From the NCBI GenBank assembly GCA_024403935.1, contig JAKSQV010000018.1, forward strand, positions 1-32,138: a DNA stretch of 32,138 nt, given 5' to 3'. Under the pieces are notes generated by a model. It did not search any database. It was not told the origin of the DNA and was given only the letters and a program-made list of their open reading frames with translations. A program made the translations under genes and the position numbers. The first letter of the stretch is position 1. Each line of letters begins with the position of its first letter. Below are positions 28,789 to 32,138 of the stretch, in pieces. The stretch is from Ruminococcus sp. (GTDB lineage Bacteria > Bacillota > Clostridia > Oscillospirales > Ruminococcaceae).

Positions 28789-30270
28789 ATGAATAACGAT
28801 TCAAAAATGCCGATCGTTCTGATCGGCAATTCTTTTAAATACGAAACCGAAGCAACTCTGAAGCTTTTTTTCAACACGGCACGCTTCACATTCATCAACG
28901 ACAGGAACATGATCGAGGGCGACAGATATGTTGTTGCCGAGGTTTGCGGAGACAGTGAGCCGCGCCGTTTCATTGCCGAGGTATGTCTCGGCGGTGAGCC
29001 TGTCATCACCGAAGGTGAAGCATCATCGGATAAGCTCGAACATGAGATATGCCGTGCAATTTTCCACACGCTTTGCAGACTGACAGGCATACGTCCGCCA
29101 TGGGGGATCATGACGGGTATCCGCCCCGTAAAAAAGGTCACTGAGCTTATCGAAAAGGGCTTGGACAAGGAACAGATACGCTCTGAGCTGACCGAACGCT
29201 TTGAGCTGATGCCCGACAAATTTGAGCTTGCATACAGAACTGCCGTGAATCAGCTTCCTATCCTTGAAAAAATCGACCGCTCTGCTGCAAGCCTGTATGT
29301 CTCTATCCCCTTCTGTCCGACAAGATGCAGCTATTGTTCCTTTGTCTCACACAGCATGGATTCAGCACGCAAGCTGATGCCCGAATACATTTCCGCTCTG
29401 TGCCGTGAGCTTGAGATACTCGGAAATATCGTCCGTGAAACAGGTACCGTTATCGACACTATCTACTTTGGCGGCGGTACTCCGACATCTATATCTGCGG
29501 ACGAGCTCCGTGCTGTTATGGAGGCTGTCGGGCGCAGCTTTGACATCAGCAGCGTACGGGAATACAACGTTGAGGCAGGCCGCCCCGACACCATAACAGA
29601 GGAAAAGCTCCGCGTGATAAAGGAGCTTGGTGCTTCGCGAATATCCGTAAATCCGCAGACACTCAATGATGATGTGCTCCGTGTCATAGGCAGGCAGCAC
29701 TCAGGTGAGGATGCCATCCGTGCATTCGAGCTTGCACGCAGTCTCGGCTTCGACAACATCAATACAGACCTGATCGCCGGACTTCCTTCGGAGTCTCCTG
29801 AAAGCTTCCGCCGCACACTCGACCGTATCTGTGAGCTGTCTCCCGAAAGCATAACCATTCATACGCTCACTCTTAAACGCTCGGCAGATCTCTTCGGATT
29901 CAGTGAAGGGAACATCGGTAATCCTGCCGCGGAAATGGTTGACTACAGCATCGAAAAACTACATTCCTGCGGCTATCTCCCCTACTATATGTACAGACAG
30001 AAAAACACCATTGATAATCTCGAAAACGTCGGATATGCAAAAAAAGGCTTCGAGAGCTGGTACAATATCTTCATCATGGATGAGACACAGACCATTCTCG
30101 GCGCAGGCTGTGCCGCTTCCACAAAGCTCGTATATCCCGACGGAAAAATCAACCGCATCCACAATTATAAATTCCCGTATGAGTACATCAACCGCTTTGA
30201 CGAGCTTATGACCAAGAAAACGGAGGTAACGGAATGCCTGAAAAAAATAAAGTCTATACCGCAGAAATAA
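28789..30270 (+). CDS. hemZ: HemZ-type radical SAM protein (coproporphyrinogen dehydrogenase-like)
   Basis: Radical SAM enzyme of 493 aa related to oxygen-independent coproporphyrinogen III oxidase. The 4Fe-4S binding motif is CPTRCSYC (C176, C180, C183). The SAM-binding strand FGGGTPTS, the GADRISVNPQT-like segment (GASRISVNPQT) and TDLIAGLPSE follow. An N-terminal extension of about 165 residues with GIRPPWGIMTGIRPVKK is typical of HemZ. In Clostridia lacking the full haem pathway, HemZ-like proteins may serve another reaction, and no other haem gene is here. Its 3' end overlaps rlmD by 37 bases. Confidence 0.9.
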   Translation: MNNDSKMPIVLIGNSFKYETEATLKLFFNTARFTFINDRNMIEGDRYVVAEVCGDSEPRRFIAEVCLGGEPVITEGEASSDKLEHEICRAIFHTLCRLTGIRPPWGIMTGIRPVKKVTELIEKGLDKEQIRSELTERFELMPDKFELAYRTAVNQLPILEKIDRSAASLYVSIPFCPTRCSYCSFVSHSMDSARKLMPEYISALCRELEILGNIVRETGTVIDTIYFGGGTPTSISADELRAVMEAVGRSFDISSVREYNVEAGRPDTITEEKLRVIKELGASRISVNPQTLNDDVLRVIGRQHSGEDAIRAFELARSLGFDNINTDLIAGLPSESPESFRRTLDRICELSPESITIHTLTLKRSADLFGFSEGNIGNPAAEMVDYSIEKLHSCGYLPYYMYRQKNTIDNLENVGYAKKGFESWYNIFIMDETQTILGAGCAASTKLVYPDGKINRIHNYKFPYEYINRFDELMTKKTEVTECLKKIKSIPQK

Positions 30271-31592
30271 CAGCTCTGACCTCCGAAGGCAGCGGAGTCT
30301 GCCGCATCGACGGAATGGCTGTATTTGTACCTGAAACTGCGATCGGCGATGTCGCGGAAATCAAAATAGTCAAGGTCCTCAGCAGCTATGCCTACGGTAT
30401 CGTATACAGGATAATCACTCCATCCCCCGACCGCTTTGACCGCCCATGCTCTGTATATAAGAAATGCGGCGGATGCGTATACAGACATATCAGCTATGAT
30501 GCTGAATGCCGCGCAAAGGAAGCAGTTGTCCGCGATGCTTTTGAACGGATAGGTGGACTGTCTCCGAAGTTTGACAGCTTCCTTTCAGCCGATACTGCCG
30601 ACCGCTACCGCAATAAGGCACAGTATCCCCTTGCAGTTGCCGACGGAAAGGCTGTCTGCGGATTCTTTGCTCCGAGAAGTCACAGAGTCATCCCTATTGA
30701 GGACTGCCCTCTGCAGCCGAAGATATTCTCGGAAATCACCGAAACAATACTCGGCTTCATCAACGACAAAAAAATATCCGTCTACGATGAAACGAACGGC
30801 AACGGCATTATGCGGCATATATACCTTCGCACCGGAACACATTCAGGTGAGATAATGGTCTGTCTCGTAGCCCGCAAGGACATCTCACGCCAGCTTGCTC
30901 CGCTGTGCAGGAAGCTCTCCGAAAACTTCTCCGCCATAAAAAGCATAGTGCTGAATATCAACAATGCGCGCACGAATATCATACTCGGTGAGAAATGCAT
31001 TACTCTCTTCGGAAACGACACGATCTCTGATACAATGTGCGGCAATACCGTCGAGATCTCGCCGCTCTCATTCTATCAGATCAATACAAAACAGGCAGAA
31101 CGAATTTACGGAAAGGCACTTGAATATGCCGCTCCGACCGGCAGCGATACTATTGCCGACCTTTATTGCGGCGCAGGTACGATCGGTCTTTCCATGGCAC
31201 ACCAGGCAGGTCAGATCGTCGGAGTTGAGATAGTCCCAGAAGCCGTTGAAAACGCAGCAGCAAACGCATTGCGCAACGGCATCACTAACACGGAATTCCA
31301 CTGCGGAGATGCCGGAACAGTGTTCGCTGAGCTCCGTAAAAATGGCTGCTCCCCTGATATCATCGTTGTTGACCCGCCTCGCAAAGGATGCTCGGAAAAT
31401 ACCCTCAACATCATAGCAGAAGCTGCTCCGGATAAAGTGGTCATGATATCCTGCAATCCTTCGACTGCCGCACGGGATGCTAAGTTTCTCTGCAATCACG
31501 GCTACTCTGCCGACCGCGTCTGCGGTGCCGATCTTTTTCCAGCTACAAGGCACGTTGAGTGCGTGGTTCTGCTGTCACGAGAAAAATCCTGA
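30234..31592 (+). CDS. rlmD: 23S rRNA (uracil-5-)-methyltransferase, RlmD/RumA type
   Basis: SAM-dependent methyltransferase of 452 aa that methylates a uracil in rRNA (position 1939 in E. coli). An N-terminal TRAM domain is followed by a 4Fe-4S site with Cys at about 72, 78 and 81 (PCSVYKKCGGC) and another in IEDCPLQP. The SAM-binding motif is IADLYCGAGTIGLS, DPPRKGC follows, and the catalytic Cys lies in VVMISCNPSTAARD. The ribosome site GGAGG is inside the end of hemZ. The C-terminus is HVECVVLLSREKS; the codons for VECV and their flanks recur 333 bases downstream, so this 3' end is probably an integration target for a mobile element. Confidence 0.93.
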   Translation: MPEKNKVYTAEITALTSEGSGVCRIDGMAVFVPETAIGDVAEIKIVKVLSSYAYGIVYRIITPSPDRFDRPCSVYKKCGGCVYRHISYDAECRAKEAVVRDAFERIGGLSPKFDSFLSADTADRYRNKAQYPLAVADGKAVCGFFAPRSHRVIPIEDCPLQPKIFSEITETILGFINDKKISVYDETNGNGIMRHIYLRTGTHSGEIMVCLVARKDISRQLAPLCRKLSENFSAIKSIVLNINNARTNIILGEKCITLFGNDTISDTMCGNTVEISPLSFYQINTKQAERIYGKALEYAAPTGSDTIADLYCGAGTIGLSMAHQAGQIVGVEIVPEAVENAAANALRNGITNTEFHCGDAGTVFAELRKNGCSPDIIVVDPPRKGCSENTLNIIAEAAPDKVVMISCNPSTAARDAKFLCNHGYSADRVCGADLFPATRHVECVVLLSREKS

Positions 31593-31636
31593 AACGGCGT
31601 ATTTGCGCGGTTTATCGGCATCGCCCTTTTCCGATA

Positions 31637-31782
31637 ACAGCAGTTTCACCCACTCAAAATCTGTATGCGGGAACAGGTAAAAGGGCAAAATGACATACAC
31701 GGCACATTTGACAACCAATCCGCACACTTTGGTTTTTGACAACCAAATCAAGCACTCGATTTAGGGTGCGTGAAACTGCTTT
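31637..31782. repeat. Inverted and degenerate internal copies of the rlmD core motif
   Basis: Using the 19-base core GAGTGCGTGGTTCTGCTGT (31557-31575) as reference, an inverted copy GAGTGGGTGAAACTGCTGT lies at 31655-31637 (minus) and a direct copy GGGTGCGTGAAACTGCTTT at 31764-31782. These two share an 11-bp perfect inverted repeat, AGCAGTTTCAC (31639-31649) with GTGAAACTGCT (31770-31780). Confidence 0.6.
31707..31746 (+). repeat. Paired 12-base direct repeats (possible arm-type sites)
   Basis: TTTGACAACCAA occurs at 31707-31718 and 31735-31746, 28 bases apart. Short spaced direct repeats near a core site resemble integrase arm-binding sites, but the function is inferred. Confidence 0.45.
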
Positions 31783-32001
31783 TTCCGATTTTTCAGTGTG
31801 TGGATTGAATGTCGCACTGAAAAACAGCGTAAAATCGCTGAAAATTGACTAATCAAAAAATGCGATTTGGGTGATTGCAAAATAGCGTTGAGTGCGTGGA
31901 AATGTTGTCACACATACTATATATAAAAACAGGCTGCTATGAATGATCTGTTCGGCGGTTGATCGAACGTCAGGAACAAAAAATTTTATGGAGGAACTTA
32001 A

Positions 32002-32138
32002 ATGGAAAAGCTTGAAAACATGGAAAAAATTGAAGCCGCGCAGGCGGCACTTGGCGAATTTCTTGTCAGCATGATGCCCGTTCCGTGGAAGAAAATCTGC
32101 TATTACTTTAAGAAAGCGGGCGGTTCATCATCGCATCG
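32002..32138 (+). CDS. Partial ORF, possible YezG-like (DUF600) immunity protein
   Basis: Open from the ATG at 32002 to the window end (45 codons), with GGAGG 7 bases upstream. The N-terminus is helical and charged, then ALGEFLVSMMPVPWKKICYY and a Lys/Gly segment. The MxPxxWxKIxxY pattern resembles the start of YezG/DUF600 proteins, which are immunity partners of LXG-type toxins. Only the beginning is visible, so the match is tentative. It lies directly past the repeat region after rlmD, where cargo of an integrated element would be expected. Confidence 0.45.
   Translation, partial: MEKLENMEKIEAAQAALGEFLVSMMPVPWKKICYYFKKAGGSSSH

Follow-up and report, generated by a model that had tools for sequence, protein, structure and literature searches.

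Putative attachment of serine-recombinase elements at the 3' end of rlmD in Ruminococcus, with a proposed mobile leader and exchangeable small genes downstream

Results

rlmD and repeated site units downstream of it

The window, that is the whole stretch of DNA analysed, is the complete 32,138-nt contig JAKSQV010000018.1 (G000:C10), whose sequence ends at 32138; the source genome (1.65 Mb, 74% complete) has R. flavefaciens MC2020 (L067) among its closest relatives. Close to the right-hand end of the contig, rlmD (30234..31592, + strand) encodes a 23S rRNA (uracil-5-)-methyltransferase of 452 residues with the Pfam tRNA_U5-meth_tr and TRAM domains, and its upstream neighbours are ordinary chromosomal genes for recJ-like, RelA/SpoT and radical SAM domain proteins. 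The stop codon of rlmD is followed by a non-coding leader (31593..31885, + strand), recognized by sequence comparison, and then by the beginning of a cargo gene (32002..32138, + strand). The window and four other draft contigs (L006, L018, L021 and L023) end ~20-550 bp past the rlmD match, as if the assembly had been broken there by repeats or mixed populations.

The 26-base match that the initial annotation had described between the last codons of rlmD (31553-31578, copy 1) and a site 333 bp further on (31886-31911, copy 2) is real, with 22 of 26 bases identical. Both copies read V-E-C-V in the same frame and, as had also been described, copy 2 reads on as VECVEMLSHILYIKTGCYE to a TGA ending at 31946. 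Chance is ruled out, since no more than 18/26 bases matched copy 1 when 31593-32138 was dinucleotide-shuffled 2000 times and since 300 shuffles peaked at 20 when any 26-mer from the final 60 bp of rlmD was admitted. This pair makes up two of seven related copies of ~20-26 bases, in both orientations, inside 360 bp; the others are three inverted copies (31636..31657, 31709..31728 and 31737..31757, - strand) and two weak direct copies (31760..31785 and 31790..31815, + strand, 62% each). About four tandem site variants were also seen by eye in ~130 bp of G025 (L046), shortly after rlmD.

An identity switch at the end of rlmD

The leader is 92-94% identical to those of three other genomes, and the DNA after rlmD looks foreign by this comparison. 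With G008, the identity is 93.75% for the leader, 77.6% for the rlmD body and 81.2% for the neighbouring radical SAM gene; with G032 and G019, where the leader stands in a non-rlmD place, it is 93.1% and 92.5% for the leader as against 70.9% and 71.9% for rlmD, and with G012, 188 bp of leader are 85.6% identical and rlmD 68.1%. Strong selection on the leader could also make it more alike than rlmD, but does not explain the presence of leader copies at non-rlmD loci. A distant blastn search of 31400-32138 against phage records gave no match.

The place of the switch could be located within rlmD itself. Across 64 pairs of rlmD loci that are alike in the leader but not in the gene, identity jumps at the CAC codon from a mean of 0.64 over the last 6 bases before it to 0.99 over the next 6; some loci enter more than one pair, so that the pairs are not independent, and because the sites were gathered by pattern, positions +1 to +27 are biased here and in the dyad analysis below. 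For these reasons, we looked separately at 28 rlmD genes identified through protein similarity alone, taken from the 29 loci L002-L030 (L028 was unparsed, and L031, whose match falls short of the gene end, was left out). In this pattern-free set, the tail codons for H, V, E and C agree in 65-79% of the pairs in which the residue is shared, compared with 21-65% for the 20 preceding codons, which suggests that the DNA of the core is constrained beyond the protein. The next five codons after H-V-E-C, at 0.33-0.68, are not distinctive when taken together. The final 13 codons of rlmD and its stop thus appear, from these alignments, to be part of the mobile DNA.

The candidate entry site at rlmD and elsewhere

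The candidate entry site CACGTTGAGTGCGTGGTTCTGCTGTCA (31551..31577, + strand) was delimited by pattern matching across the genus and by a dyad at its non-rlmD occurrences. With at most 1 mismatch, it is found in 78 of the 125 genomes of the genus, many of which have several copies, while a reversed control gave 0. Allowing up to 6 mismatches, 128 de-duplicated records were drawn from the window and loci L032-L065 and L118-L217, of which 72 lie at rlmD, 55 elsewhere (L138-3671 and L152+4810 being weak members) and 1 at a contig edge; L136 falls outside this set because its core has too many mismatches.

Serine-recombinase sites are expected to show a dyad. At non-rlmD sites, the left arm does form one with the right arm, with a self-complementarity of 0.416 at the core centre against 0.21-0.335 at other offsets (n = 42 distinct sites), and rlmD sites score 0.252 at the core-centre offset and at most 0.31 anywhere (n = 72 distinct sites). 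Furthermore, 49 of the 55 non-rlmD sites reach a stop in the rlmD frame after 11-13 residues, and we read such sites, from their sequence, as displaced or substitute rlmD ends. Most displaced tails have VECVV[LM][LM]SR or SK before the stop. Successive entry sites on the same strand, which would mark elements in series, lie for example 1,181 bp apart in G020, 2,855 bp in G069, and 8,482 and 12,009 bp in G072. A promoter-like sequence, TTGACA-17-TATTAT, spotted by eye, precedes 17 of the 55 non-rlmD sites.

The RlmD proteins of G006 (L053) and G013 (L054) carry a long additional C-terminal tail (beginning KLQSQQHIEVELKTDEL in G006), perhaps supplied by another type of element. DNA similar to this tail was noticed by eye after a site variant in L225.

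Serine recombinases and resolvases near the sites

Matches to serine recombinases, fragments included, follow 19 of 44 rlmD sites at a distance of up to 7 kb (253 kb), one of the 19 (G032, L035) having itself provided a query; in the 2.5 kb upstream, 0 of 48 rlmD sites (119 kb) have one. Non-rlmD sites have such matches upstream in 12/51 cases and downstream in 8/46. In G020:C106 (L037), the 1,181 bp between two entry sites hold one long ORF, for a 308-residue serine recombinase (PF00239 and PF07508), and judging by this content the interval is possibly a minimal autonomous element. L136 encodes a large serine recombinase of 559 residues from its likely start, and the 3' end of its gene is a site variant with 4 mismatches. 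The between-site interval of L130 (G069) has no match to the recombinase queries. In the source genome, 74% complete, PF07508 matches lie on four contigs, none of them the window contig. The window itself, which stops at 32138, shows neither a recombinase nor a right end of the element, and no excised or circular form was observed.

A 61-kb interval behind rlmD in G035 (C1:1203000-1262700, L249-L251) contains phage head, portal, terminase and tail genes together with two large serine recombinases. A single phage was considered for this interval and set aside; it may be composite, since other genes also adjoin rlmD there. The right-hand junction of the 58.6-kb IMG/VR contig L248 is similar to that of the G035 interval.

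A small resolvase (PF00239) is present in 55/125 genomes and stands upstream of 7/55 non-rlmD sites, 220-240 bp before the site; all 7 have the promoter-like end. In L118, L122, L128, L134, L151, L156 and L164, the resolvase gene (incomplete in L118 and L164) is followed by the promoter-like sequence directed into the entry site, an arrangement reminiscent, by analogy, of an integron platform. The resolvase was also considered as a specific integrase, a role weakened by the 10 of 17 sites with a promoter-like end that have no resolvase in the upstream sequence (at most 2.5 kb). A further 20 copies were chosen for lying away from the listed entry sites; 18 have more than 1.3 kb after the gene, and in 17 of these no entry-like site follows in that stretch, while L222 and L235 are too short to judge. 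In L225, an entry-site variant with 7 mismatches follows the resolvase.

Copy 2 and the junctions between cassettes

The second copy (31887..31909, + strand) matches exactly the junction pattern GTTGAGTGYGKRRAAADGTTGTC, which was derived from sequences that include the window. The similarity of the window to G008 and G012 stops there. With at most 2 mismatches, the pattern occurs at 43 places in 28/125 genomes, and in a control at 0. The idea of copy 2 as a displaced or alternative rlmD tail is not supported: it belongs to a VECVEMLS class, unlike the usual displaced tails, and this class recurs at gene-to-gene junctions within arrays.

The exact spacing of 333 is common to 9 loci, the window included, of which three are rlmD loci and six are not, and the 12 bases past copy 2 at these loci all differ except in two that share CACCGCTCAATC; the block is therefore a shared leader and not a one-off insert. 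The comparison of relatives proposed in the initial annotation proved informative in that the 333-bp arrangement is not universal. Indeed, among sites with at least 500 nt downstream, a copy-2-type site follows within 500 nt in 14/61 rlmD sites and 21/55 others and is lacking there in 47/61 and 34/55. The same annotation had proposed that an attachment core was duplicated by integration and the gene end restored by the element. The integration site and the supply of the gene end by incoming DNA are supported by the switch at the CAC codon and by the stop reached at most non-rlmD sites; the pairing of the two copies as the ends of one insertion is not, given the class of copy 2, its recurrence at gene junctions and its spacing at 9 loci.

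In arrays elsewhere, the same cassette genes occur in different orders, many of the reordered genes standing behind copy-2-type DNA or a terminator-like hairpin. Module breakpoints (distinct, in the first 5 kb only, from alignments of 200 bp or longer at 88% identity or higher) fall within 12 bp of these two junction motifs in 61 of 226 cases against 7.0 expected: 41 are at the copy-2-type 23-bp core (4.7 expected), 20 at the hairpin (2.3 expected), and the other 165 at neither. Between several cassette genes of L118, L127, L129 and L130, a terminator-like hairpin such as CCGCACCACTGAATCACCAGTGATGCGG is followed by AGAAAGGAG or similar. Cassette junctions were compared by eye only, and a strict hairpin pattern, found at 8 places in 6/60 genomes, is too strict for junction counts.

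Cargo genes

The cargo gene of the window is represented by its first 45 codons and is, by similarity, a relative of YezG-like immunity genes truncated by the contig end. It is 64% identical to a protein of G004:C135, which matches PF04634 (YezG-like, E 3.7e-7, 30.9 bits); the 45 residues on their own match nothing in Pfam. Relatives exist in five other genomes of the 125, and in those that are readable, G004 included, a copy-2 site was not found upstream by eye, so that no movement of this particular gene as a cassette was observed. When 16 of 19 cassette proteins and the G004 relative were scanned, 3 of the 17 matched immunity families (one YezG-like, two SUKH), 5 matched GNAT, FMN reductase, peptidase S51, LRR or T5orf172, and 9 matched nothing. 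A cassette of L119 (G012) was named beta-lactamase-like by eye.

Discussion

Behind rlmD, small genes seem to be exchanged as cassettes, and some of these are probably immunity genes. We propose, with a probability of roughly 0.7, that the rlmD 3' end is the chromosomal attachment site of Ruminococcus serine-recombinase elements, with a mobile leader and exchangeable cassettes behind it. Comparison brings together several lines of sequence evidence in favor of this reading: a leader that varies less between species than the adjacent gene and that recurs away from rlmD, the sharp change of identity at the CAC codon, tails ending at an rlmD stop elsewhere, the clustering of breakpoints, reordered cassettes and the association with recombinases in relatives. 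Incoming DNA would join at CACGTTGAGTGCGT and carry its own final rlmD codons, and rlmD would stay whole because its last codons are brought along. In the window, the acquired segment would correspond to a left end of ~335 bp, made of the rlmD tail and a leader with units resembling recombinase half-sites, and would terminate in copy 2, the junction after which interchangeable small-gene cassettes come; the cassette present here would be the truncated cargo gene, related to YezG-like immunity genes. Serine recombinases fit as the enzymes at entry sites, where we infer that they cut; the leader copies would bind the recombinase, and copy 2 would be the recombination site itself and not a short homology used by RecA. 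A docking site at this position may also account for draft contigs stopping just past rlmD.

The alternative that survives best accepts serine-recombinase entry at rlmD and has the cassettes exchanged by RecA between conserved leaders and terminator hairpins, the repeats being passive. This is a serious contender, at somewhat less than even odds, and it overlaps with the preferred explanation, which leaves the mode of cassette exchange undecided. Many leaders share 90-360 bp at 84-94% identity (others only ~65%), which would permit cassette shuffling by ordinary homologous recombination, and the hairpin junction resembles an ordinary terminator. However, breaks concentrate at the 23-bp core well above expectation (41/226 against 4.7), and the several site-unit copies of the leader, in both orientations, are not explained by passive repeats.

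Simple integration, in which copies 1 and 2 would be attL and attR of one element and copy 2 the displaced rlmD end, is improbable. It would suit the foreign-looking DNA between two similar sites and the replaced end of rlmD, but copy 2 is of another class than displaced tails, recurs ahead of several cassette genes and keeps the 333 spacing at the 9 loci. Slightly less probable still is a leader that controls the cargo gene as an attenuator or structured RNA: its folding z-score as single-stranded DNA (-2.51) goes in this direction, whereas no Rfam match was obtained in window positions 31400-32138 or in L118, L120, L122 and L130, and the units repeated in the leader look like the DNA site at the rlmD end. 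A genuine integron (tyrosine integrase plus attC sites), suggested by the cassette arrays, the attI-reminiscent leader and the promoter-like sequence before 17/55 non-rlmD sites, is very hard to sustain, given that serine recombinases adjoin the sites and that the integrase model TIGR02249 exceeds its cut-off in 0/125 genomes, its weaker matches in 121/125 genomes being uninformative because they are expected of tyrosine recombinases in general and also occur in 14/14 control genomes.

To return to the preferred reading, attachment at rlmD followed by a leader and cassettes, a bolder version would make the locus the serine-recombinase counterpart of an integron, with rlmD as the platform, the seven-copy leader as an attI-like region and single-gene cassettes, immunity genes among them, captured and excised at copy 2. 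We hold this version as tentative and rather unlikely. If the cassette step is site-specific, rumen and gut bacteria would have a means of collecting genes that needs no integron integrase.

Relation to known systems

Serine-integrase integration at rlmD/rumA is already known. A shared multi-copy leader present at rlmD and elsewhere with shuffled small-gene cassettes was not found in the open-licence literature, a body that includes few subscription journals and no bioRxiv. Integrons have an entry site, a shared leader and cassettes with a recurring junction, and in this they are like the rlmD system; unlike them, the genomes examined here have no IntI above the cut-off (0/125). In staphylococci, SCC elements likewise rely on serine recombinases, sit at the 3' end of a gene for an rRNA methyltransferase and occur in series, but their target gene is rlmH and not rlmD. 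A partial likeness to rAID lies in co-oriented short genes, some of them SUKH immunity genes, and in conserved intergenic motifs; however, rAID has a predicted tyrosine recombinase, where serine recombinases and the rlmD end are found here, and GNAT, FMN reductase and peptidase S51 proteins are also part of the cargo described here.

The closest resemblance in target is to elements at rumA (rlmD). In the available portions of the reports, serine-integrase ICEs target this gene in streptococci, with an att site that may lie within the integrase gene (PMC4701971), CTn5 occupies rumA in C. difficile 630-delta-erm (PMC4320837), and prophages adjoin rlmD in Erysipelothrix (PMC12785378). As in those accounts, the putative Ruminococcus elements have the same target gene and an exchanged 3' end, serine recombinases lie near the sites in relatives of the source genome (with PF00239/PF07508 in G020), and the insertion point lies in the rlmD 3' end with the gene end replaced, as in rumA/rlmD-targeting serine-integrase elements; the L136 recombinase gene that ends in a site variant likewise recalls the streptococcal rumA ICEs (PMC4701971). 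The difference is that the rumA/rlmD elements are described, in the same portions, with repeats of 2-21 bp and as whole ICEs, not cassettes, whereas the sites in Ruminococcus often stand in series and are followed by a shared leader and swappable cassettes.
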